From the NCBI GenBank assembly GCA_031278665.1, contig JAITKC010000021.1, forward strand, positions 1-11,074: DNA of 11,074 bases, read 5' to 3'. Positions 1 to 11,074 of this stretch are shown here, piece after piece; within the stretch, counting starts at the first letter, position 1, and each line of letters begins with the position of its first letter. The DNA comes from Bifidobacteriaceae bacterium. GTDB lineage: Bacteria; Actinomycetota; Actinomycetes; Actinomycetales; WQXJ01. The position numbers and the translations under genes are program-made. The notes under the pieces were generated by a model, which ran no database searches, was not told the DNA's origin, and saw nothing but the letters and a program-made list of their open reading frames with translations.

Positions 1-117
1 ACGCATGAGCAGTCGGTGATGTGGTGCACGCAGTGTCATGCCGACGCGGTTGTGCCGGAGGGGTGGTTGACGTATGCGGAGCAGCAAAGGCAAATCAAAG
101 AAGCCCAAGCCGAATGA
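1..117 (+). CDS. Multihaem c-type cytochrome, C-terminal 38 residues (5' end outside the window)
   Basis: The window opens inside a reading frame that ends at TGA 115-117. It contains the haem-attachment motif CTQCH (fragment residues 9-13, after VMW), then a short segment with GWLTYAEQQ and a charged, helical-looking tail. CxxCH is the covalent haem c site, so this is the last haem of an exported cytochrome. A NapC/NrfH- or Cgr1-like electron donor is likely, but the family cannot be fixed from 38 residues. An identical fragment lies on the other strand at the right edge. The next genes downstream on this strand encode a TPR protein and CcdA, both cytochrome c maturation functions, which supports the haem reading. 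The gap to the next start is 72 nt with no terminator-like structure, so co-transcription is plausible. Confidence 0.75.
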   Translation, partial: THEQSVMWCTQCHADAVVPEGWLTYAEQQRQIKEAQAE

Positions 118-119
118 AC
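1..119. repeat. Left copy of 119-bp perfect terminal inverted repeat
   Basis: Positions 1-119 are the exact reverse complement of 10956-11074. The match covers the whole cytochrome fragment plus the two bases after its stop. It breaks at base 120 (C here, T in the other copy), and seven more bases then agree (AAGGCGG). This shows two cytochrome genes with identical 3' ends in inverted orientation. It may equally mark the shared boundary k-mer of an assembled contig. Confidence 0.97.
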
Positions 120-177
120 CAAGGCGGCGGGCCTGCGGAGCAGTTTGTCTGGGTTGTTCGCGCGGTCGATTCCACTC

Positions 178-182
178 GGAGG
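178..182 (+). promoter_or_regulatory. Ribosome binding site deciding the TPR protein start
   Basis: GGAGG lies 7 nt before GTG 190. It favours that start over the upstream in-frame TTG 145. Confidence 0.7.
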
Positions 183-189
183 CCAAACG

Positions 190-936
190 GTGACCGGCGC
201 TGACCGGACGCCGGTCCCGGAAGACCTGGTCGAGTTCTGGGAGTCGGCGCCAAAGCAGGTCCGAGCGCGGTTGGTGGCCGAGGCGAGGGCGGCGGCGAAA
301 AGAGACGGCGGCATCGGGCAATTCGGGGAAGCCGACGATGACGACGACGACGTTCCGGACGACGCGGACGACGCGGACGAAGCGGACGACGCGCTGCCGC
401 CTGGCCGGGCCGGCCAGTTCTCGGCGGCGCGGAAGAACCTGCTGATCGTGGCGGCGATCATCGGCGTGGTGCTGGCCGTGTGGGCCATCGGCCGGCCGCC
501 GGCCGACGGGGGCGCGAGCGCCGACCCCTCCTCCGGCGCCGAGGCCAGCCAGTCAAGCGTCGATTATTCGGCCCGCGCGGCCGAACTGGAGGCGGCGTTG
601 GAGGCCGATCCCGCCAACACCGACATAATGCTCGAACTCGGTGTGGCCTATTTCAACAGCGGCAACCTCGACCTGGCCTCGGAACAGTGGAACAAAGTCG
701 CCGAACTCGACCCCGACTCCGCCCTGGCCTGGTACAACCTGGGCTTCTATTACCTCGCGAGGGACCCCGCGGAGGTCGATCTGGCGAGGGCGGCCTGGGA
801 GAAGGTGCTCGAACTGGAGCCCGGCACGGAAATGGCCGCGTCGGTGGCCAGCCATCTGGAGGCTCTCGACACGTCGTTTGGCGCCGAATCCGCCGATGCC
901 GCGCCCAGCCCGTCCGGCACGGCGGACGCCCCGTGA
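190..936 (+). CDS. Membrane-anchored TPR protein, NrfG/CcmI-like, probable cytochrome c maturation factor
   Basis: The 248-residue protein has four visible parts. Residues 1-46 are a helical, charged N-terminus. Residues 47-68 are a very acidic stretch rich in Asp. A single membrane segment spans about residues 84-100. A C-terminal region carries two tetratricopeptide repeats at about 141-174 and 175-211, with typical LGVAYFNSGN and YNLGFYYLA patterns and the DPDSALAW turn. TPR proteins of this shape (NrfG, the CcmI C-terminus) present apocytochrome to the haem-ligation machinery on the outer face of the membrane. I chose GTG 190 because GGAGG at 178-182 sits 7 nt upstream; an in-frame TTG at 145 has no such site. 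The stop overlaps the ccdA start (GTGA), so the two are translationally coupled. The family assignment rests on TPR plus neighbours, not on a diagnostic motif. Confidence 0.75.
   Translation: MTGADRTPVPEDLVEFWESAPKQVRARLVAEARAAAKRDGGIGQFGEADDDDDDVPDDADDADEADDALPPGRAGQFSAARKNLLIVAAIIGVVLAVWAIGRPPADGGASADPSSGAEASQSSVDYSARAAELEAALEADPANTDIMLELGVAYFNSGNLDLASEQWNKVAELDPDSALAWYNLGFYYLARDPAEVDLARAAWEKVLELEPGTEMAASVASHLEALDTSFGAESADAAPSPSGTADAP
337..393 (+). repeat. GAC/GACGCG microsatellite-like tract inside the TPR gene
   Basis: A run of GAC codons is followed by repeated GACGACGCG units. It encodes the acidic Asp/Ala stretch just before the membrane segment of the TPR protein. Such tracts are prone to slippage, so the number of acidic residues may vary between strains. 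Confidence 0.75.
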
Positions 937-1751
937 TCGGCGGGGTCTCGGCCGGGGCCGCCCTGCTGGCTGGGATCGCCGCGTTCGCCTCGCCCTGTTT
1001 TCTGCCGGTGGTGCCGGTTTGGGTGGGTTACCTGACCGGTTTGGGGGACGCGACCGGGCGGCGCCCATCCGCTCCAGCCGGGCTCCCCGGCGGACCCGGC
1101 GCTGACGGGCGGGCCGAGGGCGCCGGAACGGCGGGGCGCCCCGGCGGGCTCGGCGGGCTGGCGCTCGCCCGATCAAGCCAACTCCAAGCCACCGCCCACG
1201 CCCTGCTGTTCGTCGCCGCCTTCACAGTTGTGTTCATGGCCCTGTGGGGGCTGGTGGCGCTGATCGGCTGGGCGGCGGCCGACTATCGCGTCTGGCTGCG
1301 CGTCGGCGGCGGCGGCCTGTTGATGTTACTCGGGTTGAACCGCGCGGGCTGGATCGACCTGGCCGCCTTCTCACGCCAGCGCGGTCCCGCTTACCGCCCC
1401 AACCCGGCCGAGGCCCCGACCTGGCGGCGTTCCGCCCTGCTCGGCCTGGCCTTCGGAGCGGGCTGGACGCCGTGCGTCGGGCCGGTGTTGGGCGCGGTTC
1501 TCGGTCTGGCCACCGCGCGGCCGACGGCGCTCGGCGGGCTGGCCTTGATGGCGCTGTTCGCCATCGGCCTGGGCTTGCCCTTCGTGGCGGTCACAGCCGG
1601 AGCGCAATCCCTGGTCGTCAAGCTCAAATGGCTGACCCGCCGCCACCGGGCGGTCGACATCGCAGTCGGCGCCGCCCTGATGGCGGTGGGCTTCCTAATG
1701 CTCTCCGGTCTGCTGGACCGCCTGGCCGCACTGTTCCCGGCCATCATTTAG
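933..1751 (+). CDS. ccdA: CcdA/DsbD-type transmembrane thiol-electron transporter (cytochrome c biogenesis)
   Basis: The 272-residue polytopic membrane protein passes reducing equivalents from the cytoplasm across the membrane, keeping apocytochrome CxxCH cysteines reduced for haem attachment. Both family hallmarks are present: the redox cysteine in FASPCFLPVVP (Cys22) and its partner in GWTPCVGPVLG (Cys181). About six hydrophobic segments are visible, and the length is near the small-CcdA norm plus an insert. The GTG start at 933 overlaps the stop of the TPR gene (GTGA), and the protein then begins MIGGVSAGAALL, which runs straight into membrane segment 1. Unusually, residues about 38-80, between segments 1 and 2, form a long Gly/Pro/Ala/Arg-rich loop. 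No ResB, ResC or CcmF partner lies in the window. The gene ends against a convergent flavoprotein. Confidence 0.9.
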   Translation: MIGGVSAGAALLAGIAAFASPCFLPVVPVWVGYLTGLGDATGRRPSAPAGLPGGPGADGRAEGAGTAGRPGGLGGLALARSSQLQATAHALLFVAAFTVVFMALWGLVALIGWAAADYRVWLRVGGGGLLMLLGLNRAGWIDLAAFSRQRGPAYRPNPAEAPTWRRSALLGLAFGAGWTPCVGPVLGAVLGLATARPTALGGLALMALFAIGLGLPFVAVTAGAQSLVVKLKWLTRRHRAVDIAVGAALMAVGFLMLSGLLDRLAALFPAII

Positions 1752-1818
1752 CCTCCGGCGAACCGGCGGCCTCGGCCCGAGCCGCGGTGGCGGACCCGGC
1801 GCCGAGGCCGGCGGAGGC
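1751..1818. terminator. Two-part GC hairpin between convergent ccdA and P1
   Basis: GCCTCCG (1751-1757) pairs with CGGAGGC (1812-1818), and CGGCCTCGGC (1767-1776) pairs perfectly with GCCGAGGCCG (1801-1810). It sits in the 82-bp gap between two converging stop codons, so a bidirectional terminator role is likely. There is no T-tract on either side. Confidence 0.6.
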
Positions 1819-1833
1819 GGTTACCTTTCCCGG

Positions 1834-3504
1834 CTATATGCGCCCGGTGGCGATGGGCTGGCCGGAGGCGAGCAGGCCGGCCACCCGGCCGGTCGTCATG
1901 GCGCGGCCTAGACTCATGCCCGGGATGACCATCTGGTGCTCCAGGCCGCCGAAGAAGTTGCCTTGGCAGTTTCCGACCGCGTACAGCCCCTCGATGACCT
2001 CGTGGTTCTCGTCCAGAGCCTCGCAGTTGCCGTTCGTGATAATCCCGTTCAAAGTGCACAGGATTCCAGGCTGGCGGGCGATCGCGTAGAACGGCCCCTG
2101 CCTGACGGCCTTCAGCCGCGCCGACTGCTTGCCGTAGTCGTCGTCGTAGCCGGCATCGCAGAGCACGTTGTAGCGGTCGACGGTTGCCTTGAGCGCGTCG
2201 GCGGGGACTTCGATCAGCGCGGCCAGTTCCTCAATTGTGGCGGCGCTATAGGCTTTGCCCTCGGCGACGGCTGCCTCGACCCCCTCGACAATGGGAACAG
2301 GCGGCTCCTTCTTCATCATCCCGGAGCCCATGTCCTCCCAATCGGTCCGGAAGTTGTCGTCGAAAATTTGGTAGTGCATATAGTCCGGCTGGTTCATGTC
2401 CTGAGCCCAAAGCTGGCCGTATTGCACGTCCTCGTTGCAGAAACGGCGGCCGAGCTTGTTGACGAAAAGCCAGGGGATGCCGGAGCCCGGCACGTCCGGA
2501 ACCCCGATCGGCGGGTCGAAATGGATATTGGAGCAATGCGGCGATAGCTGCATCTTGCCGCCAACGTACGTGCCCATGTACTGCCCGTCGCCCTTGTTAA
2601 TGTCCGGGCGCATATAGGCGCTGCCAAGGCCCTCGGCGAAAGGCAGGTAGCGGGCGCGCAGGACCGGGTTGTTGCCGTAGTCGCCGGCCGCCAGTATCAC
2701 GCCCTCTGCGGCGTTGAACCTGATGTACTCGCCCGCCTCGTTCAGGCCGATGACGCCGCTGACCCGCCCGGTGTTGTCGTCGTCGCGAATAATCTGGACC
2801 GCCGGCGTGCTGTAGTAGACCGTGGCGCCGTTCTCCTCGGAATAGTCGAGCAGCCATTGGGCCAGCGGCCCCATCTGCCCCGCCCACATGTGAACAGTCG
2901 GATAGGCGAAGTTCCAGGCGTCGGGATAGTCCATTCCCCGGTTAAGCCCGACGAAGACGGGTCCGACGCCTTCGACGTCGTTCGTCAAAGCCATCGCCCA
3001 GTCCATCGTCGGGCCGGAGTTGTAAATCCAGGTCTTGATCAGGTCCAGGTCGGCGCGGTTCTCACCTTGGCGCGTCCACTCGATGACGGCCTCCCACGGG
3101 TCGAAGTCGTCGCCGCCCTCCTGTTGGGCCTTCGAGTTCCAGGCCGCGGCGCCGGCCCCATTGGCCACCGCGACCTCCGCCTTTTGCAGAACCGCGACTT
3201 TCTTGCCGGCTTCGGCGGCCGTGGCGGCCGCCACCGAGCCGGCGACGCCGCCGCCGATGACGACGACGTCAACCTCGACCGTTTCCTTGATATCCGAATC
3301 CGGAATTGGCTTCATCACGGCGATGCTGCCGCCGAGATCCTCCTCGGCGGCGCCGGAAGCGGTCGGGTCTCCGGATGGGTCACCTCCCGACGACGACGGC
3401 GTGCAGGCGGCCACCAGCCCAGTCGCGGCTGCGCCGGCGCCGACTAACGCCGCCCCCTTCAGAAAACTCCTGCGATCCGTTTCTCTGCTTTTGGGCGCTT
3501 GCAT
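1834..3504 (-). CDS. P1: Tat-exported FAD-dependent lipoprotein reductase (FAD_binding_2 family)
   Basis: The protein has 556 residues. Its N-terminus holds a twin-arginine motif (DRRSFLK, residues 10-16), a hydrophobic core and a lipobox ending VAAC, predicting a lipid-modified Cys34 outside the membrane. A Ser/Gly-rich linker follows, then the FAD-binding Rossmann motif GGGVAG (84-89). A second FAD contact is EGLYAVGNCQGN near the C-terminus. This is the fold of fumarate/urocanate reductases, KstD and Cgr2. The residues that align with the FccA catalytic arginine (Arg402) and substrate residues (His504, Arg544) are not conserved: NEDVQY puts Tyr362 at the Arg402 place. Fumarate is therefore unlikely, and the true acceptor is unknown. 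No haem or FMN domain is present. ATG 3504 is preferred over an upstream in-frame ATG at 3597 because an AAGGGAAG-type ribosome site precedes it and the Tat motif then sits at the usual depth. P3 is its closest relative here. Confidence 0.88.
   Translation of the reverse strand: MQAPKSRETDRRSFLKGAALVGAGAAATGLVAACTPSSSGGDPSGDPTASGAAEEDLGGSIAVMKPIPDSDIKETVEVDVVVIGGGVAGSVAAATAAEAGKKVAVLQKAEVAVANGAGAAAWNSKAQQEGGDDFDPWEAVIEWTRQGENRADLDLIKTWIYNSGPTMDWAMALTNDVEGVGPVFVGLNRGMDYPDAWNFAYPTVHMWAGQMGPLAQWLLDYSEENGATVYYSTPAVQIIRDDDNTGRVSGVIGLNEAGEYIRFNAAEGVILAAGDYGNNPVLRARYLPFAEGLGSAYMRPDINKGDGQYMGTYVGGKMQLSPHCSNIHFDPPIGVPDVPGSGIPWLFVNKLGRRFCNEDVQYGQLWAQDMNQPDYMHYQIFDDNFRTDWEDMGSGMMKKEPPVPIVEGVEAAVAEGKAYSAATIEELAALIEVPADALKATVDRYNVLCDAGYDDDYGKQSARLKAVRQGPFYAIARQPGILCTLNGIITNGNCEALDENHEVIEGLYAVGNCQGNFFGGLEHQMVIPGMSLGRAMTTGRVAGLLASGQPIATGRI
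1858..1926. repeat. 69-bp direct repeat, copy in the P1 3' end
   Basis: Ungapped match to 3681-3749 with five substitutions, in the same orientation. The two copies bracket P1 and its promoter region. Confidence 0.9.
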
Positions 3505-3552
3505 TCGACTTCCCTTCTGTTGCGGTGAACTCTGAGCCCGAGACTGGCCGCG

Positions 3553-3558
3553 ATTATA
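3553..3558 (-). promoter_or_regulatory. Perfect TATAAT -10 box for P1
   Basis: On the minus strand this hexamer reads TATAAT, 48 nt upstream of the ATG, which gives a leader of roughly 40 nt. No good -35 is seen at 17 bp; the bases there read GCCCAC. An activator may be needed. On the + strand, ACACG occurs twice, at 3560 and 3570, exactly 10 bp apart, over the spacer and -35 region. Confidence 0.55.
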
Positions 3559-3655
3559 TACACGGGATAACACGAGTGGGCCGGGCAAAAGGATCACAGT
3601 TTCGCATCAGCCGCGACTCCAAGGTCTTAGTTGCGGAGGGCAATCGACCACCCAA

Positions 3656-3670
3656 GTCCCCGCGGGGGAC
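3656..3670 (-). terminator. Small perfect hairpin beyond the flavoprotein relic
   Basis: GTCCCC (3656-3661) and GGGGAC (3665-3670) form a 6-bp stem with a 3-nt loop. It starts 8 nt past the end of the relic homology in the minus direction. It could be the surviving terminator of the lost gene. There is no strong T-run. Confidence 0.35.
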
Positions 3671-3677
3671 GGTTTCT

Positions 3678-3749
3678 GGTCTGGCCGGCGGCGAGCAGGC
3701 CGGACACCCGGCCGGTCGTAATGGCGCGGCCAAGACTCATGCCCGAGAT
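3678..3749 (-). pseudogene. 3'-end relic of a fifth flavoprotein gene
   Basis: On the minus strand this segment translates to a 24-residue peptide with GMSLGRAITTGRVSGLL and AAGQT. It matches the C-termini of P1 (GMSLGRAMTTGRVAGLL) and P3 (GMSLGRA, then AAGQTY). At DNA level, 3681-3749 and 1858-1926 agree at 64 of 69 positions without gaps. Nothing flavoprotein-like lies upstream of it (3750-3855), and no start or FAD motif accompanies it. The frame stays open both ways but is not otherwise protein-like. I read it as what remains after loss of a tandem paralogue of P1. Confidence 0.8.
3681..3749. repeat. 69-bp direct repeat, copy in the flavoprotein relic
   Basis: Partner of 1858-1926 at 64 of 69 identical bases. 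Homology stops abruptly at both edges: beyond 3749 the sequence no longer resembles any flavoprotein, and below 3681 the P1 tail codons do not match. Confidence 0.9.
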
Positions 3750-3819
3750 CTCGACCGCCGGCGCGCTGTGCTGGACTGCGGCTCGCCTCCCGCGACTGCT
3801 CTTACGTGGCGTTGGTCTC

Positions 3820-3848
3820 TTGTCGCCGGAATTCACCCCAGATAGAAT
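3820..3848 (+). promoter_or_regulatory. Promoter of P2, predicted leaderless
   Basis: The -35 TTGTCG (3820-3825), a 17-bp spacer and the -10 TAGAAT (3843-3848) fit the housekeeping consensus. The A of ATG 3856 lies 8 nt past the -10 box, where transcription should begin. No ribosome site precedes this ATG. Together these predict a leaderless mRNA, a common actinobacterial arrangement. Confidence 0.65.
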
Positions 3849-3855
3849 TCGCCTC

Positions 3856-5556
3856 ATGGCAAAGAAACACGGTATGCCCCGCCGGGAAGGGGCCAAGAAT
3901 GCGGTTTCCAGAAGAGCGTTTCTGGGCGGCACGGCGGCGCTCGGCGGCGCCGCGGCGTTAACCGGGCTCGCCGCGTGCACGCCTGAGAGCACAGCGGAGA
4001 ACAGTCCGTCGCCAACTGGCGGCGGCACCTCGACGCCATCGGACATAAGCGTCGATACCGTCGAATTCAACCATCCTTTCAAGATCGACCCAATTAAGCA
4101 GAGCGCGGTAAGCGCCGACTCCACCAAAGAATGCGACTATCTCGTCATAGGCGCTGGAAACTGCGGCATGGTGAGCGCCGCGCGGGCCTCCGAACTTGGG
4201 CTCAGCGTCATAGTGCTTGAGAAATCCTCAGTCGTCGGCGGGGCGTCGGTCGGCACAGAGGCGCACTTCGCCCTCGACACCGTGAAATATATCGCCGAAA
4301 ACAACCATCCGACGTGGACTAAACAAGAAGCCTACGACTATTTCATGCTATTCAACAACTACCGCTCAAACGCCACGCTGGTGTCGGCCTTTCTGAACCA
4401 CCATCACGAGGTGTTCGACTGGTTTATTGACAAGGGCGCGCAAGTGCGGATGCTCCTGTATTCTCTGGCCGGCCCCGAGACCGGAGCCGGCCTGTTCTTC
4501 GAGGGCCGGGCGGTGGCGCTGTCTGAGATCTGCCAGGAGACGTTGGCCGCAAATGGCGGTGAGGTCATCGTGTCATCGCCGGTGCGCCAACTTGTGGTGG
4601 ACGACCAGAACGCGGTTGTCGGCGCCCTCGCCGAAGACGCCGACGGAAAGACTTTGTTCGTCAAGTCGAAGGCGACTTTTGTCGGCACCGGCGGATTCGG
4701 GCGCAACAAGGATATGATCCACTATTACATGGGCTTCCGCGGCGACAACGCCTTCGCCGGCGACACTTTCCTTGAGCACGACGGCGACGGCGTGAACATG
4801 CTTCTGGGCGCCGGGGGAATTGACGGCGGGCTGCGTTGGTCCCAAGGCCAGACTCCACAAGTTCTCAACGTCGCCTATGGAGAGCCTCTCGACCGGGCGG
4901 CCAGCGAGCCGTATCTCTGGGTCAATAAGTATGGCAAGCGGGTCGGCTGTGAGTTCTTCACAAACCTGACTATTCCCTTCGAGATGTGCTCTTACGCGCC
5001 GGACGCGACCTACTTCAACATATTCGACTCGACTAAAGTCGCCCGAATGGAAACCGAGGAGTTTTTCACGCAGAGCCGTGGATTGCCCTACACCTACGAC
5101 CCCGAACCCGGAATGGGACAAGCGCTTGACGAGGGCGCCGAAGCCGGCTTGTGTTTCAAGGCCGACACCCTCGAAGAACTCGCCGAAAAGGCCGGCATCG
5201 ACAAGGAAGGGCTTGTCGGAATGGTCGCGGAATACAACGGGCTGTGCGAACAGGGCGAAGACACCCAGTTCTTCAAGGACCCGGCGATGCTGCTGCCCAT
5301 AACCACCGGGCCGTTTTACGCCATCCCTTGCGTGCCTTGTCGGCTCTCAACGCTCAACGGCGTCCATGTCAACGAGAATCTTGAGGTCATAAGGTCGGAT
5401 GGCAGCCCCGTGCCCAACCTCTACGCGGGCGGTCTCGACTCCGGAAGTTTCTTCATGACCGACTACAACCACGCGTTCTCCGGTTCGGCCAGCTCGTTCT
5501 CGTTCTTCACCGGTTTCCACGCCGCCGATGTCGCCGCCGCCAAGTTGACCGGTTGA
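3856..5556 (+). CDS. P2: Tat-exported FAD-dependent lipoprotein reductase, divergent subclass
   Basis: The protein has 566 residues. A basic N-terminus leads to SRRAFLGG (18-25), a hydrophobic core and the lipobox LAAC, with lipidated Cys41 predicted. A Ser/Thr/Pro linker comes next. The Rossmann FAD motif is GAGNCG (99-104), followed by IVLEKSSVVGG, and the C-terminal FAD contact is PNLYAGGLDSG. The family is FAD_binding_2. At the place of the FccA catalytic Arg402 the sequence reads CEFFTN, with Asn370 aligned, and the substrate His504 and Arg544 motifs are absent. An unusual CVPC pair (Cys492, Cys495) lies in the loop that carries His504 in FccA. ATG 3856 is preferred over the upstream in-frame ATG at 3631, which would run through the relic region and the promoter. 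Substrate unknown. It shares a FKADTLEELA segment and a KDP motif with P4 and is only distantly related to P1 and P3. Confidence 0.88.
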   Translation: MAKKHGMPRREGAKNAVSRRAFLGGTAALGGAAALTGLAACTPESTAENSPSPTGGGTSTPSDISVDTVEFNHPFKIDPIKQSAVSADSTKECDYLVIGAGNCGMVSAARASELGLSVIVLEKSSVVGGASVGTEAHFALDTVKYIAENNHPTWTKQEAYDYFMLFNNYRSNATLVSAFLNHHHEVFDWFIDKGAQVRMLLYSLAGPETGAGLFFEGRAVALSEICQETLAANGGEVIVSSPVRQLVVDDQNAVVGALAEDADGKTLFVKSKATFVGTGGFGRNKDMIHYYMGFRGDNAFAGDTFLEHDGDGVNMLLGAGGIDGGLRWSQGQTPQVLNVAYGEPLDRAASEPYLWVNKYGKRVGCEFFTNLTIPFEMCSYAPDATYFNIFDSTKVARMETEEFFTQSRGLPYTYDPEPGMGQALDEGAEAGLCFKADTLEELAEKAGIDKEGLVGMVAEYNGLCEQGEDTQFFKDPAMLLPITTGPFYAIPCVPCRLSTLNGVHVNENLEVIRSDGSPVPNLYAGGLDSGSFFMTDYNHAFSGSASSFSFFTGFHAADVAAAKLTG

Positions 5557-5581
5557 GTCGCGGCGCGCTCTCACAGCCAGC

Positions 5582-5613
5582 GGCGGGCCGGTCCCAATTG
5601 GGGCCGGCCCGCC
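5582..5613. terminator. Strong bidirectional hairpin between P2 and P3
   Basis: A 14-bp stem (5582-5595 with 5600-5613, one G:U pair on the + strand) closes an AATT tetraloop. It begins 25 nt after the P2 stop and ends 18 nt before the P3 stop, midway between convergent genes. No T-tract is present. Confidence 0.75.
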
Positions 5614-5631
5614 TGCCGGTCGGCCCGACGA

Positions 5632-7326
5632 TCAGTAAGTCTGCCCGGCGGCCGAAAGCCCCGCCAGATAACCGGTCACCGCGGCCCGCCCCAGGCTCAT
5701 CCCGGGAATGACCATTGGGTGCTCAAGCCCGCCGAACCAGTTTCCAGAGTTGTTGCCGGCCGCCCACAAACCCGGTATCGCCACGCCCTGGTCGTCGACG
5801 ACTTCCATTTTCTCGTTGATGACCAGGCCGCCGAGCGAGCAAAGCAAAGACGGCTTGCGCAAGATCGCGTGGAAAGGCGCCTGCCTGATCGCGGTCAAAC
5901 GCCCGGCTTGTTTCCCGAAGTCCTCGTCCAGGCCGAGGTCGTACAGCTCGTTATAACGCGCCACCGTCGCGACCAGCGCGTCGGCCGGCACCTCCATCTT
6001 TTCCGCCAGCTCTTCGATGGTGTCGGCGGTCAAAACGTCGCCGCTTTCGATCTGCGGCTGGATAAACGCCATGCCGAAACCGGGGAAGGGGCCATTCTTG
6101 TTGTTGCCCTCACCCATTCTCCCGGCTTCCACGTCGGCCGCGAAGTTGTCGTCGAAGACTTGATAGTGCATGAACTCGGGTTGATTCATGGCCTGCGCGT
6201 ATATCTGGCCGTAGGAGCAGTCCTCATTGCAGAAGCGCTCGCCCAGCAGATTCACCCAAAGCCACGGGCAGCCGGAGCCGGCGACGCTGGGGGCGGGCGG
6301 CAAAGCCGGATCGTAGTGAATATTTCCCGCGTGCGGGCCCTTTTGCATTTGGGCGCCCGCCCAAAGCCCCATCAAGTGCCCGTCGCCTTGGTTGCTCTTG
6401 ACCATGTAGGCGCTCTCAAGACCTTCGATATGGGGCATGTATTCGCTCCGGAAGTCCGGATTGTTGCCGTAGTCTCCGGCCGCGAGGACAACGCCGTTCT
6501 TTGCGTTCACTCTGATATATGAGCCGTCCTCCCTTTGCGCGATGACGCCGGTGACCTTGCCGCTGTCGTCTTGGAGGAGTTGTTTGGCCGGAGTGGAGTA
6601 ATACACCTCCGCGCCATTTGCTTGGGCGTTTTCCAAGACCACTTCGCAGACCCGGACCATTCCCCCCGGCCCCAAGAACACGACGCCGCCGCTATATGCG
6701 AAGTTCCAGGGGTCTGGATACACCACCTGCCAGGCCGGGTCGTACAGAATGGGCTGGCACTCCTCGTCGTCCTTGCACAGTTCGACTAGCTGATCTACGG
6801 CTATGGCGCTGAATTGGGCCCAAAGGTGGACAAGTTTGCGATCCGAACGGTACTCGCTCTCGCGCATCCAACGGTTGATCTCTTCTTCCACATCCCATTC
6901 CTGCCCGGTGTCCTTTTGCATCTGCGTGCCATAGGCGCCAAAACCGGCGCCGTTGGCGATAACACCGGCCTCCTTCTGGAGCACTATGACCCGCGCGCCC
7001 GACTTAGCCGCCATCAAAGCCGCGTTCGAGCCGGCCACGCCGGCGCCCACCACCACGACGTCGGCCTCGAGGGTCTCGGCGATTTGGTCCTCGGGAATGG
7101 GGTCTGGCTTGGCCTTGTAATCGCTCGGCGAAGCCTGCGCCGTCGGAGCGGTCGTGTTGTCGCTCGGTTGGGAGGGCGAACAGGCGGAAAGCGCGACGGC
7201 GCCCACTCCGACTGAGAGCGCGCCCGCCCCCGAAAGAAAGGCGCGACGAGAGACGCCCGTTCCCTCCGCCGGCGCCGCGAAACCCCCGGTCACGTCCCGA
7301 CTTTGTTTTCCACCTTTTTCTGCCAT
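5632..7326 (-). CDS. P3: Tat-exported FAD-dependent lipoprotein reductase, P1-like subclass
   Basis: The protein has 564 residues. SRRAFLSG (26-33) is the twin-arginine motif, and the lipobox LSAC predicts lipidated Cys49. A Pro/Ser/Thr linker leads to the FAD motif GAGVAG (94-99). Subclass-specific segments are shared with P1: NGAG after the Rossmann unit, LAAGDYGNNP (281-290), QGDGHLMG, GSGCPWLWVN and RFCNED (364-369). The C-terminus is GLWAAGNNSGNWFGGLEH and then VIPGMSLGRA. Tyr372 takes the place of FccA Arg402, as Tyr362 does in P1. That shared Tyr suggests a related substrate or mechanism for the pair. It has no haem or FMN domain, so an external cytochrome donor is inferred. The start is firm: AGGAGG precedes ATG 7326 at ideal distance and a -35/-10 pair lies above it. 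The promoter and hairpins on both sides indicate its own transcript. Confidence 0.9.
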   Translation of the reverse strand: MAEKGGKQSRDVTGGFAAPAEGTGVSRRAFLSGAGALSVGVGAVALSACSPSQPSDNTTAPTAQASPSDYKAKPDPIPEDQIAETLEADVVVVGAGVAGSNAALMAAKSGARVIVLQKEAGVIANGAGFGAYGTQMQKDTGQEWDVEEEINRWMRESEYRSDRKLVHLWAQFSAIAVDQLVELCKDDEECQPILYDPAWQVVYPDPWNFAYSGGVVFLGPGGMVRVCEVVLENAQANGAEVYYSTPAKQLLQDDSGKVTGVIAQREDGSYIRVNAKNGVVLAAGDYGNNPDFRSEYMPHIEGLESAYMVKSNQGDGHLMGLWAGAQMQKGPHAGNIHYDPALPPAPSVAGSGCPWLWVNLLGERFCNEDCSYGQIYAQAMNQPEFMHYQVFDDNFAADVEAGRMGEGNNKNGPFPGFGMAFIQPQIESGDVLTADTIEELAEKMEVPADALVATVARYNELYDLGLDEDFGKQAGRLTAIRQAPFHAILRKPSLLCSLGGLVINEKMEVVDDQGVAIPGLWAAGNNSGNWFGGLEHPMVIPGMSLGRAAVTGYLAGLSAAGQTY

Positions 7327-7331
7327 GATTT

Positions 7332-7337
7332 CCTCCT
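7332..7337 (-). promoter_or_regulatory. Strong ribosome binding site of P3
   Basis: On the minus strand this is AGGAGG, 5 nt before the ATG within AAAAGGAGGAAATC. It is the best Shine-Dalgarno sequence in the window and fixes the start at 7326. Confidence 0.85.
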
Positions 7338-7377
7338 TTTATTATGTCGGCGGCCGCCCCGCGAAGAATTGGCGCGG

Positions 7378-7406
7378 CCTATATTTCTCGCCTCGCCGTT
7401 TGGCAA
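7378..7406 (-). promoter_or_regulatory. Promoter of P3
   Basis: On the minus strand TTGCCA (7401-7406) and TATAGG (7378-7383) are separated by exactly 17 bp. The -35 matches consensus at five of six positions and the -10 at four. The leader would be about 45 nt, ending in the strong ribosome site. Confidence 0.6.
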
Positions 7407-7410
7407 GTTT

Positions 7411-7432
7411 AGCGCTAACCGGTTGACCGGTC
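7411..7432. promoter_or_regulatory. Palindrome cluster upstream of the P3 -35, possible operator
   Basis: AGCGCT, AACCGGTT and GACCGGTC lie side by side, the last two sharing ACCGGT at 8-bp spacing (7418 and 7426). They sit immediately upstream of the P3 -35 box, a usual place for an activator or repressor site. No regulator gene is present in the window. Confidence 0.35.
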
Positions 7433-7507
7433 TTAGGACTCGTAATATTTCTCCATTGCGCCGGGAATAATGGCGCCCGCCCCATTTGCGGATTCCCTGG
7501 GCGGCCG

Positions 7508-7538
7508 GCCCGCCGCGGGGTGGCGCCGCGGTGCGGGC
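7508..7538 (-). terminator. GC hairpin after the ABC ATPase gene
   Basis: GCCCGC (7508-7513) pairs with GCGGGC (7533-7538), continuing with a 5-bp inner stem (7514-7518 with 7526-7530) across a 2-nt bulge. It begins 6 nt past the ATPase stop on the minus strand. No T-run follows. Confidence 0.5.
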
Positions 7539-7543
7539 TTCCG

Positions 7544-8974
7544 CTAAAGGTGCGCGCTGAGGTCGGAGAGGTTGACGCAACGGTCGAAGTAACCGCGCGT
7601 CACCCGATTGACGACGGTGGTGTAAAGCAGGGCGTTGTCGAAGAAATCTTGTGGCGGCAAAGGTTTTGACAACCGCCCGTTCGCCAGCATGACACAGCTA
7701 TCCGCCGCAATTGCCGCGAACTCGAGGTCTTGGGTGGCTATGACAATCGACCAGCCCGAAGCCTTGAGCGCGGCCAACCGCTTGGCCAGTTTCCGCGCGG
7801 TCGCGAAATCGACGGCCGCCGTCGGCTCGTCGAGCAGCAAGACGCCCGGCGAGGCCGCCTCGGCCTGCTCGACAATCGCGGTCAGAGCGGCTAACTGGTC
7901 CTCGCCGCCGCGCGCCTGCTGACACAACGCCAAGGCGCCCACGCCCCGCTCGGCCGCTTGGCCGCCGAGGGATTCAAGCAGGCGGCTCTTGCCGCTGGCG
8001 TTGTCGCCCATCAGGGCCAGCGACCGGCCGGGAATGAGCCTGAGCCCGCCCGCCTCGACCAGGACGGCGCTGTCCACTTCCGCCGCGGTCTCCGGGGCCG
8101 CCTCGGCTGCGACAGCGGCGGCGCCGGCGGCGTCATCGGCGGCCGACTGAGCGGCATCGGCGGCAGCGGCGGCGTCGGCGGCCGACTGAGCGGCATCGTC
8201 CAACTGCGCCACCGCGTTCACGGCGGCCTTGGCGGCGGCCTCCACCTCAGGCCAGGTTGCCAGGCGTTCGCGGGCCTCGGCCACGGAAATTGGATACCGG
8301 GCGACCAAGTAGGTGCCGGCCATCGCGTCGTGGCCCTGATCGGCGGACGATTTCATGTGCCTGATCAGCGGAATTGTCACGTTGGCGGGTAGGGCGCTGG
8401 TGAAGGCGGCGGCGTTCGCGCTTGTCCCCACTATGAAATCCTGCACATTGCCGTCAAAGACAAGACGGTCTTTGACGAACAAAAGCACGCGTTCGCAGTG
8501 CGGGAAAAGCTCCTCGAGATGGCGGTCGGAAATCACGACCGTGGCCCCTTGCTCGCGGTTTAGGCGAACCAGGAAACCCAAAAGCAGTAAAGCGGCGGCC
8601 GGGTCCAGGTGGGCGGTCGGCTCGTCCAGCGCGAAGTTCGGGACCTGGCGGGCCAATTTGGCGGCGAGAGACAAACGCTGGCGCTGACCTCCGGACAAAG
8701 TCGCCGGATCGCGGCCGACAAGCTCGCCGGCGCCGAGCAGACTCAACATGTCGGCCAGGAAAGGCGAGTCCCCGCCGGCGGCCAATCCCGGCTCGGAGGG
8801 CCTCAGATTCCGAATGAACTCTCCCTTGCGGCTGCTGGTCAAACCGCAAACCACCACGAAACTGCCTGGTTCGATGACCAAGCCCTCGACGTTTAGCGCC
8901 AACCCCTCTAGACCTTTCGTCGCTGTTTTAGCCGGCCGCCGCGCCCGCGCGCCGCATCGCCAACGCAGGCGCAA
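7544..8974 (-). CDS. Fused double ABC ATPase, ECF/CbiO-like, with degenerate halves
   Basis: The 476 codons hold two nucleotide-binding domains joined by an Ala-rich linker (about 243-293). Domain 1 has a ruined Walker A (GLTSSRKG, 44-51) but an intact signature LSGGQRQR (93-100) and Walker B FALDEPTAHLD (114-124). Its H-loop reads SDRHLEE, where relatives usually have an EHRL-type order. Domain 2 has a good Walker A (GDNASGKS, 323-330) and Walker B (LLLDEPTAAVD), but a poor signature (ARGGED, 354-359) and Gln415 at the H-loop. Both halves are too short: Walker A to Walker B spans about 53-67 residues, versus well over 100 normally. The region after each Walker B (variable tail with IPLIRHM and SVAEARERL) recalls EcfA. 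No EcfT or S component is nearby. The TTG 8974 start has no ribosome site; TTG 8902 is an alternative. It may be decaying or specialised. Confidence 0.65.
   Translation of the reverse strand: MRLRWRCGARARRPAKTATKGLEGLALNVEGLVIEPGSFVVVCGLTSSRKGEFIRNLRPSEPGLAAGGDSPFLADMLSLLGAGELVGRDPATLSGGQRQRLSLAAKLARQVPNFALDEPTAHLDPAAALLLLGFLVRLNREQGATVVISDRHLEELFPHCERVLLFVKDRLVFDGNVQDFIVGTSANAAAFTSALPANVTIPLIRHMKSSADQGHDAMAGTYLVARYPISVAEARERLATWPEVEAAAKAAVNAVAQLDDAAQSAADAAAAADAAQSAADDAAGAAAVAAEAAPETAAEVDSAVLVEAGGLRLIPGRSLALMGDNASGKSRLLESLGGQAAERGVGALALCQQARGGEDQLAALTAIVEQAEAASPGVLLLDEPTAAVDFATARKLAKRLAALKASGWSIVIATQDLEFAAIAADSCVMLANGRLSKPLPPQDFFDNALLYTTVVNRVTRGYFDRCVNLSDLSAHL
8136..8198. repeat. Direct repeat of 24 bp at 39-bp period in the ATPase linker
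   Basis: The same 24 bases occur at 8136-8159 and 8175-8198. They encode AAQSAAD-type units about 13 residues apart (residues about 259-281). This explains the low-complexity Ala-rich linker between the two nucleotide-binding domains as an internal duplication. Confidence 0.85.
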
Positions 8975-9010
8975 TAGGCGCGCGATGACGCGCCGCCATT
9001 GGACAGCCGA

Positions 9011-9053
9011 CGATGGGTGGCCGTGGCCAACTGCCGCTCACAGCCACCCATCG
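9011..9053 (-). terminator. Perfect 11-bp inverted repeat downstream of P4
   Basis: CGATGGGTGGC (9011-9021) and GCCACCCATCG (9043-9053) form a perfect stem around a 21-nt loop. It begins 36 nt beyond the P4 stop on the minus strand and lies before the ATPase start. It probably ends or attenuates the cytochrome-P4 transcript. There is no T-tract, so some readthrough into the ATPase gene is possible. Confidence 0.6.
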
Positions 9054-9088
9054 CGATCGGCGGACCCGGATGACGGCCCGCTTTTCCC

Positions 9089-10828
9089 CTATTCGGCGCC
9101 GGAAATGAACTTGCCGAGCAGGTAGCCCCAAGTCAGGCAACGACTGGTGGACGTGCCCGAGACGTGAATTGGGTAATCCTGCGCGTAAAAGTCGCCCGAG
9201 ACGTTGCCCGCGGCGTACAAACCCGGGATGACCTCGCCGTTGGTGTCGAGGCACTCCAGTCGCTTGGTCATCTTGATGCCGCCGACGATGCTCATCATGG
9301 TGCCGCCGTTGCGCATGGCGTAGAACGGCGCCTGGACTATGGGGTAAAGCATGCGCGGGTCTTTGCAGAATTGGCTGTCCCGGCCGGCCTCGCAGTCCGC
9401 GTTGTATTGCGCGACTTGCGCCAAGAAGGCCTCTTTGTCGATTTCGCCGATCAGATCGGCCAATTCCTCGAGGGTGTCGGCTTTGAAGCCCACCCCGTTG
9501 GTTATGTAGCCTTCGATTTCAGTGCGCATCGCGTCGCGGTCGAAGGGAACGCCCTGCACGCCGCTCAAGCTATCCCAGAACATGCCGCCGCCGTAATTGA
9601 GGCTGTCGGCGTTGTCGCGGTCATAGTTGTCGTCGAAAATCGAATAGGAGAAGCCTTTGGGCTGCAGCATGAACTGCACGGCTTTGCCCTGCACCCAGGT
9701 CGCCTCGTTCATGTAGCGCCGGCCCTTTGTGTTCACGAACATAAACGGCCCGTGGAAGATCGCCAGCGCCTGGGGATGGAGCATCGGCGGGAACGGCTTG
9801 CCCTGCATGGCCGCGCCGACCCACATCGCCATCTTGTGTCCGTCGCCGGTGCTGAAGCCGGGCGGGGCGAACTGGTTGTCAAGGGCGTTGGCGGTGAATT
9901 CCTCGACGTAGCACTCCATCATCTCGGAGTCGTCGTGGATGCCTCCGGTGGTCAGGACGACGGCCTTGGTGCCGGTGTATTTCTTGTGGGCGCCGCTTTC
10001 GTCTTCTGTGATGACGCCGGTGACCCGGTCGCCTTCTTTGACAAGCTGGACGACTCTGGTGTTGAAGGTCGCTGTGAACTTGTCGGCGTGCTCATCTTTG
10101 AGAAGCTTGAAATGCGCGGCGGTGGGCATATAGAAGAACTTGAAGCCGGGGGCGAACTCGATCGCATAGACCTCGTCCGGCACTTCGAAGTCCGGGCCGG
10201 CCTGGGTGGAGCAGTTGTCCGGCTCCTCCGGGAACCATTCGAACTTGCCCCAGGCCGAAATCAAAGCCTGGGTGGCGCCGGGGTCGACGTGCTGGACGTT
10301 TGCCCACATCCAGTCCAGGGCCTCGCCGGAGCGGTCGAACCACTGTTGGACCAGTTCCTCGTTGACCCGGTTGCCCGATGACCGAATCCAGAGATACTGG
10401 GCGCGGTCGCGGTTGACGTGAAGGTCGGCTTCCCGGTGCAAATGGGACTCGCAGCTACCGGTCGACCCGCCGCGGGCCTGCACCCATTCCGACTTCTCGA
10501 ACGCTAGGACGGAAAGGCCGTTCTCGACGCAGGACAGCGACGTGTGCACGCCCGCGTTCCCCAGACCCACGACGATGACGTCGGCGCTGCCGCCGTCCTC
10601 CGCGTCCGTTATCGGCTCTGGAACGTCCTCCCAGGTCCAGTGGGCCTTCACATAGCCTTTGGGGCCGTCGCCGCCGCTGGAACCAGTGGGGCTCTCGCTC
10701 TTGCCGTCGTCTGGCGACGATGGCGAGCAGGCGGCGGCCAGACCCGTCGCCGCCACGCCCGCGCCGACCAGCGCCGCCCCTTTGAGGAAGCTCCGCCGGT
10801 CCGTTCCCGCCGATTTAAACTCTCGCAT
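9089..10828 (-). CDS. P4: Tat-exported FAD-dependent lipoprotein reductase paired with the right-hand cytochrome
   Basis: The protein has 579 residues. The Tat motif DRRSFLK (10-16) and lipobox AAAC (Cys34) lie in a signal peptide almost identical to that of P1. A 45-residue low-complexity linker precedes the FAD motif GLGNAG (88-93). The C-terminal FAD contact is PGLYAAGNVSGD, followed by YPIHVSGTSTS. At the FccA Arg402 place the sequence is NEATWV (Val379), and the His504 loop reads GGTMMSIVGG, so fumarate reduction is not expected. Substrate unknown. The ribosome site AAGGAG lies 6 nt before ATG 10828. The gene begins 129 nt downstream of a cytochrome stop on the same strand. This gives a cytochrome-flavoprotein order like Cgr1-Cgr2 of Eggerthella lenta and suggests that the cytochrome feeds electrons to P4. 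Confidence 0.9.
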   Translation of the reverse strand: MREFKSAGTDRRSFLKGAALVGAGVAATGLAAACSPSSPDDGKSESPTGSSGGDGPKGYVKAHWTWEDVPEPITDAEDGGSADVIVVGLGNAGVHTSLSCVENGLSVLAFEKSEWVQARGGSTGSCESHLHREADLHVNRDRAQYLWIRSSGNRVNEELVQQWFDRSGEALDWMWANVQHVDPGATQALISAWGKFEWFPEEPDNCSTQAGPDFEVPDEVYAIEFAPGFKFFYMPTAAHFKLLKDEHADKFTATFNTRVVQLVKEGDRVTGVITEDESGAHKKYTGTKAVVLTTGGIHDDSEMMECYVEEFTANALDNQFAPPGFSTGDGHKMAMWVGAAMQGKPFPPMLHPQALAIFHGPFMFVNTKGRRYMNEATWVQGKAVQFMLQPKGFSYSIFDDNYDRDNADSLNYGGGMFWDSLSGVQGVPFDRDAMRTEIEGYITNGVGFKADTLEELADLIGEIDKEAFLAQVAQYNADCEAGRDSQFCKDPRMLYPIVQAPFYAMRNGGTMMSIVGGIKMTKRLECLDTNGEVIPGLYAAGNVSGDFYAQDYPIHVSGTSTSRCLTWGYLLGKFISGAE

Positions 10829-10834
10829 TACGCG

Positions 10835-10840
10835 CTCCTT
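10835..10840 (-). promoter_or_regulatory. Ribosome binding site of P4
   Basis: It reads AAGGAG on the minus strand, 6 nt before ATG 10828. It lies at the edge of the second of two long direct repeats. Confidence 0.75.
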
Positions 10841-10901
10841 GATGTTTGATTTGGACTCTTGTTCTAATAGCTCTTTGATGTGGACTTGGACTCTTGTATT
10901 A
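10835..10901. repeat. Two imperfect 31-32 bp direct repeats in the P4 leader
   Basis: Copies at 10835-10866 and 10871-10901 share the 12-base core TTGGACTCTTGT (10851-10862 and 10886-10897) and a flanking TTGATG. The one nearer P4 includes its ribosome site; the other has AAAGAG at the equivalent place on the minus strand. Possible operator pair or leader-RNA element, or simply a local duplication. Confidence 0.75.
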
Positions 10902-10910
10902 CTCGCCCCC

Positions 10911-10932
10911 GGCGGCCGGGGTTCCGGCCGCC
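10911..10932 (-). promoter_or_regulatory. Intercistronic hairpin between cytochrome and P4
   Basis: GGCGGCCGG (10911-10919) pairs perfectly with CCGGCCGCC (10924-10932) around a 4-nt loop. It lies 25 nt after the cytochrome stop. With no T-run it may protect the cytochrome mRNA end or partly terminate, setting the cytochrome to P4 ratio. Confidence 0.5.
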
Positions 10933-10955
10933 AACTGGCGAACGACCCCGCCTTA

Positions 10956-11074
10956 GTTCATTCGGCTTGGGCTTCTTTGATTTGCCTTTGCTGCTCCGCA
11001 TACGTCAACCACCCCTCCGGCACAACCGCGTCGGCATGACACTGCGTGCACCACATCACCGACTGCTCATGCGT
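10956..11074. repeat. Right copy of 119-bp perfect terminal inverted repeat
   Basis: Exact reverse complement of 1-119. The copies diverge at the first base beyond (position 10955), three bases past the cytochrome stop codon on that strand. Confidence 0.97.
10958..11074 (-). CDS. Multihaem c-type cytochrome, C-terminal 38 residues (5' end outside the window)
   Basis: This is the reverse-strand twin of the fragment at the left edge, identical in every base. The frame runs in from the right edge, carries CTQCH as the last haem site and stops at TGA (10958-10960). P4 follows on the same strand. The pairing of a multihaem cytochrome with a haem-free, exported flavoprotein is the expected architecture for a two-protein anaerobic respiratory reductase. 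Because only the C-terminus is visible, haem number and membrane anchoring are unknown. Confidence 0.75.
   Translation of the reverse strand, partial: THEQSVMWCTQCHADAVVPEGWLTYAEQQRQIKEAQAE

Follow-up and report, generated by a model that had tools for sequence, protein, structure and literature searches.

The described systems closest to this locus are the cardiac glycoside reductase operon of Eggerthella lenta, the soluble flavocytochrome c fumarate reductases and, for its two ends, the contig break that a repeat induces in a de Bruijn assembly. In the E. lenta operon, Cgr1/Cgr2 (PMC5953540), a membrane cytochrome of the cytochrome c3 superfamily (PF14537) adjoins a Tat-type FAD flavoprotein. 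The same adjacency was found here at the right end of the sequence, where the 3′ end of a cytochrome gene is followed on the same strand by the flavoprotein gene P4, whereas the cytochrome end on the left is followed by a TPR gene instead; the locus further differs from the operon in carrying four flavoprotein genes and a CcdA gene between the two cytochrome ends. As for soluble flavocytochrome c fumarate reductase (1d4c, 1qo8), P4 matches mainly its flavin part and the cytochrome protein P0007 described below matches its heme part, but in the present case heme and flavin are carried by separate proteins. In de Bruijn assemblies, contigs overlap by k bases, and a contig retains one k-mer of the repeat that it abuts. 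The termite-gut metagenomes from which MAGs JAIRJQ-JAITXW were deposited were assembled by MEGAHIT v1.2.8, with contigs kept from 1,000 bp upwards and 119 as the last value of k, according to that study (PMC11257099).

The window, i.e., the whole stretch of 11,074 bp analysed here, is the entire contig C274 (1-11074 of 11074) of the draft genome bin G000, which is 74% complete and comprises 382 contigs; the window ends are therefore contig ends. Direct comparison showed that positions 1-119 are the exact reverse complement of positions 10956-11074, an identity with a chance of about 1e-72 at equal base frequencies. At position 120, the left end has C and the right end has T, and the next seven bases (AAGGCGG) match again. 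This heptamer occurs at a frequency of about 2.6e-4 per position in 114 contigs of G000, and a repeat search of the window returned the two arms as 1-127 and 10948-11074 with 99% identity. Both ends translate as THEQSVMWCTQCHADAVVPEGWLTYAEQQRQIKEAQAE-stop, with one CxxCH motif. The initial annotation had described the ends as inverted copies identical over exactly 119 bp and as the end of a CxxCH cytochrome, and both descriptions were confirmed. The features of the window are listed in Table 1; the RR-type motifs of P1 to P4 are taken by us to be Tat export signals.

Table 1. Features of the window and the evidence for their assignment.
Feature	Positions	Strand	Evidence or remark
Terminal k-mer (putative) common to both ends	1..119	+	1-117 = 38 codons + TGA, 3′ end of Cgr1-like multiheme cytochrome
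Residual homology past the branch point	120..127	+	Mismatch at 120, then 7 matches (121-127) against 10948-10955
TPR protein (start uncertain)	145..936	+	PF13414, 46.4 bits; first gene past left cytochrome end
CcdA/DsbD-like membrane protein with a probable role in cytochrome c maturation	933..1751	+	PF02683, 33.5 bits; relatives
P1, FAD_binding_2 flavoprotein, RR-type Tat motif RRSF	1834..3504	-	PF00890, 162.6 bits
Scar of second P1-like gene	3677..3782	-	blastn: 73 bp of 3′ end (92%) beside 35 bp of middle (80%)
P2, FAD_binding_2 flavoprotein, RR-type Tat motif RRAF	3856..5556	+	PF00890, 104.8 bits
P3, FAD_binding_2 flavoprotein, RR-type Tat motif RRAF	5632..7326	-	PF00890, 161.9 bits
ABC ATPase-like, probably two halves (start uncertain)	7544..8974	-	PF00005, 48.9 bits; ECF/CbiO-like matches below cut-off, two stretches
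P4, FAD_binding_2 flavoprotein, RR-type Tat motif RRSF, directly downstream of right cytochrome copy	9089..10828	-	PF00890, 119.4 bits; flavocytochrome c 1d4c match
Inverted second copy of terminal 119 bp	10956..11074	-	Cytochrome 3′ end; upstream of P4, same strand

Exact repeats were surveyed in 114 contigs of G000, the readable part of a set of 129 whose smallest member is 2528 bp and whose other 15, all below 3,000 bp, are masked as N. One further contig-end match longer than 89 bp was present in these 114 of 382 contigs, between C53 and C55, and it too measured exactly 119 bp: the two contigs begin with the same 119 bp, part ways at base 120, and share one frame that is open in both. No exact repeat longer than 119 bp was found in the 114 contigs; the next-longest, of 113 bp, is internal to two contigs, and contig ends also share stretches of 21-89 bp. 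The contigs of two relatives of the same genus, G008 (JAITJY) and G003 (JAIRNM), carry k119_* names. From these names, the assembly settings of PMC11257099 and the pair C53/C55, we infer that k was 119 for the sample of the window as well. By its letters, the accession range given by that study includes both JAITJY and JAIRNM. The pair C53/C55 is the sole other exact-119 pair in the 114 contigs, and both this rarity and the shorter shared ends of 21-89 bp count against reading 119 as k.

The match at the window ends reaches the physical contig ends and gives way to a mismatch after 119 bases, its length recurs at an unrelated pair of contigs, and nothing longer occurs in the contigs surveyed. 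A repeat-induced contig break in a MEGAHIT assembly at k = 119 has the same appearance, with k bases common to neighbouring contigs and a split at the next base; a second case exists in the same genome, and the published k list runs to 119. The present case differs in that the two ends of a single contig meet one repeat, in inverted orientation. The proposal of the initial annotation that 119 is a de Bruijn k-mer size, the window being a whole contig halted at a branch, is thus well supported by the completeness of C274, the contig names of the two relatives, the published settings, the second exact-119 pair and the lack of any longer repeat in 114 contigs. The perfect match over 119 bp marks a boundary of the assembly, and its length is an assembly artefact rather than a biological length. 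Since a contig retains one k-mer of the repeat that it abuts, 119 bp is a lower bound for the length of the repeat. Perfect terminal repeats may simply reflect the k of the assembler, which makes this a useful check on contig-end repeats in draft genomes.

We consider it likely that the contig broke, at k = 119, at a repeat holding the cytochrome gene, with two near-identical inverted copies behind it. A de Bruijn assembler run at k = 119, most likely MEGAHIT, would have produced the window as one whole contig, which would stop at both ends where the cytochrome repeat runs into TPR-CcdA on the left and into the P4 reductase gene on the right. With one k-mer of the repeat, and no more, left on each flanking contig, the perfect inverted match of 119 bp would result. 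The actual repeat would extend further, probably over the whole cytochrome gene, and a short contig of its own, built only once, would represent it. In the simplest case, the genome would carry two near-identical cytochrome copies, inverted around the 10.8-kb reductase cluster, and these would have arisen by recent duplication or by gene conversion.

A candidate for the separate short contig was found among proteins. A protein search with the cytochrome of G008 gave 264 matches, and among the 120 of these that were listed only one, P0007 (205 aa), has a tail identical to the 38 residues of the window (38/38). P0007 has no second member and comes from one contig only, 1056 bp long. A sole full-length copy, set beside two contig ends, fits two copies collapsed into one contig, and the 1056-bp contig is presumably the collapsed repeat. 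The N-terminal piece of P4 matched two proteins, from contigs 1192 and 591 bp long and thus not from one of 1056 bp, and the N-terminal piece of the TPR protein gave no match. The lack of any TPR or P4 partial protein on a 1056-bp contig agrees, if weakly, with the P0007 contig being the repeat. No third site of the cytochrome tail was reported in G000, an absence that may be incomplete with contigs below 3,000 bp possibly outside the search. P0007 begins with V, and the idea that it is cut at its start was dropped: the eight proteins among 122 that lack an initial M all start with V or L, as expected if their start codons were left unconverted.

Very probably, a single Cgr1-like multiheme cytochrome gene has two settings, one ahead of TPR-CcdA and the other ahead of the Tat-exported flavoprotein P4, and the duplicated gene is probably real. 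The homology at positions 121-127 suggests a real, diverging repeat rather than a random join. The initial annotation had inferred that the genome carries at least two copies of the cytochrome gene with identical 3′ ends, one on the TPR/CcdA side and one on the P4 side. Two copies are indeed the simplest cause, and P0007 on its 1056-bp contig fits them; that both lie within one genome rather than in two strains is likely. In G008, the TPR gene is preceded by TatC and not by a cytochrome.

The gene orders of the relatives bear on a rival explanation, in which each genome has a single cytochrome gene, the population comprises variants with the gene either before TPR-CcdA or before P4, and the contig merges their common interior. 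In G008, the gene of a 246-aa cytochrome on contig C64 precedes that of a P1-like flavoprotein in the same orientation, and contig C189 carries a 255-aa cytochrome beside an oppositely oriented P2-like gene, followed further on by a P1-like gene; the two cytochromes are 67% identical to each other. That a relative has two such genes, both on contigs with a P1-like flavoprotein, speaks for the duplication proposed above, and their identity of only 67% speaks against it. One cytochrome was found in G003. On contig C32 of G008, the TPR gene directly follows TatC, and the cluster that holds them contains ResB and CcsA-like genes but no cytochrome, so that the left junction of the window has no parallel in the relatives read and only the right junction resembles them. 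This asymmetry favours population variants, as does the nature of the source, a draft bin of 382 contigs at 74% completeness. However, the contig is unbranched throughout, and one genome with both junctions is the simplest account. Moreover, the interior orders recur in G008, CcdA-P1 on contig C206 and P1-P2 on contig C189, and the interior of the window is thus not an obvious chimera. Taken together, we regard such a mixture of variants as unlikely.

The left junction without parallel would also be expected of a library or assembler chimera (fold-back or PCR), in which one of the junctions is present in no cell, and the composition of the window points the same way, its GC content being 64.7% against a bin mean of 69.6% (SD 2.1, 114 contigs). 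On the other side, the seven matching bases past the mismatch would be rare in a random join, the first 2 kb have a bin-like GC content of 71%, and the flavoprotein and cytochrome genes measured in G008 are also at 57-64% GC (values for genes, not a mean for G008). A chimera is accordingly judged very improbable. A biological terminal inverted repeat of 119 bp, belonging to a transposon or an invertible switch, would explain perfect inverted repeats on both sides of 10.8 kb, but the repeat coincides with the end of a coding sequence and ceases 2 bp past the stop codon, its length recurs at the unrelated pair C53/C55, and no recombinase or transposase Pfam family was matched by the seven window proteins scanned (E up to 0.001), for which reasons a mobile-element repeat was rejected and practically no credence is left to this explanation.

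With a contig break at a duplicated cytochrome gene as the preferred reading, homologous recombination between two identical, inverted cytochrome genes might turn the 10.8-kb reductase cluster around, an event for which we see very little likelihood. If it took place, each flip would change the upstream region driving P4 versus CcdA and could act as a slow respiratory-reductase switch in a gut bacterium.

The tetranucleotide composition of the window is also atypical, ranking 100 of 114 contigs of G000 by distance. For the cytochrome genes as such, contamination is not favoured as the origin: the cytochrome contig C64 of G008 also carries an IlvD that is 84-86% identical to the IlvD of nine other genomes of the genus (partial in G001). 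This holds less firmly for the window's own contig, given its atypical composition.

Analysis of the cytochrome family showed that PF14537 was matched above cut-off in three relatives (38-44 bits versus 25), and P0007 is listed with PF14537. The best NCBIfam match was Cgr1 (NF051471), with 170.9 and 182.1 bits in two relatives and 174.3 bits for P0007; since about 171-182 bits fall short of the cut-off of 340, the cytochrome is not Cgr1 by that model. P0007 and the three relatives each have three CxxCH motifs, one CxxxCH and one CxxxxCH. By analogy with Cgr1/Cgr2, the cytochrome would carry electrons from the membrane quinone pool to the exported flavoprotein reductases. The pairing of the two protein types is not universal: no flavoprotein was found near the related cytochromes among the six proteins on L051 and the three on L052, two Coriobacteriales contigs considered apart from the Eggerthella loci L054-L059; one scan of nine proteins took in four from L051, three from L052 and two from G008. 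On the quinone side, MenD was detected above cut-off in 12 of 18 family genomes, which makes menaquinone plausible in the family; G000 and G008, the window's genome and the one with two cytochromes, show only pieces or sub-cut-off matches, which counts against the proposed electron transfer. Matches to PF02621, a family of the futalosine pathway, were weak and confined to 4 of the 18, neither G000 nor G008 among them.

Within the same 18 family genomes, G000 included, the cytochrome model was matched in three, ResB in four, CcsA-like in four and TatC in nine; neither ResB nor a CcsA-like gene was detected in G000, an incomplete genome, and this too counts against the proposed function. A study of termite-associated Bifidobacteriaceae (PMC11707648) reports that pathways for cytochromes and quinones are generally absent from its MAGs of Ancillula, Opitulatrix, Servula and Nutricula. 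C-type cytochromes are indicated in the present genus, which is labelled Bifidobacteriaceae. The locus as a whole is an ordinary case of a contig break at a repeat, and the cytochrome/reductase cluster in this genus is a more interesting by-product than the repeat itself. The scar of a second P1-like gene suggests that the reductase cluster duplicates and decays, which speaks for a duplicated cytochrome gene. A recent duplication of an electron-carrier gene next to these exported reductases, which is probable, suggests in turn that local duplication is how clusters of this kind expand.

Cgr1-like multiheme cytochrome genes, resembling that of the Eggerthella lenta cardiac glycoside reductase operon, were located at three loci in the genus, which bears the label Bifidobacteriaceae. 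The copy on contig C64 of the same-genus relative G008 is, on sequence grounds, unlikely to be contamination, because the contig also carries an IlvD with 84-86% identity to the IlvD of the other nine genomes of the genus, that of G001 being partial. One paper on other genera of Bifidobacteriaceae reports that cytochrome pathways are missing there (PMC11707648).

Positions of the Cgr1-like multiheme cytochrome genes
Locus	Genome and contig	Coordinates
L014	G008 C64	2039-2779
L015		4441-5208
L028		534-1277

The search for the menaquinone marker MenD in 18 genomes of the family gave matches above the cut-off in 12, and neither the draft genome that contains the window (G000) nor G008 was among them. 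These two are the genomes of most weight for the cytochrome here. Gene pieces at contig ends may explain the shortfall in both.

The search with P4, one of the window's FAD_binding_2 flavoproteins, returned 50 matching stretches in G008, 26 in the relative G003 and 11 in G000, and 0-4 in each of the remaining seven genomes of the genus, all counts being of stretches and not of genes. The FAD_binding_2 flavoproteins thus appear to have expanded in these three genomes. P0121, an 86-aa P4-like protein on a 1192-bp contig, has an N-terminal part of P4 fused straight to its last residues, as if formed by an internal deletion. A remnant of a second P1-like flavoprotein gene was also observed at window positions 3677-3782, where 73 bp from the gene's 3′ end (92%) adjoin 35 bp from its middle (80%).

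The GC content of the window (1-11074) was 64.7% versus a mean of 69.6% (SD 2.1) over 114 contigs of G000, among which its tetranucleotide distance ranked 100; the first 2 kb had a GC content of 71%. The window's flavoprotein genes may have been acquired recently, or a binning error may have placed the contig in this genome.

Besides the window ends, a second 119-bp pair was found in G000, in which the first 119 bases of contigs C53 (L124) and C55 (L126) are identical and the sequences diverge thereafter, perhaps as paralogues.
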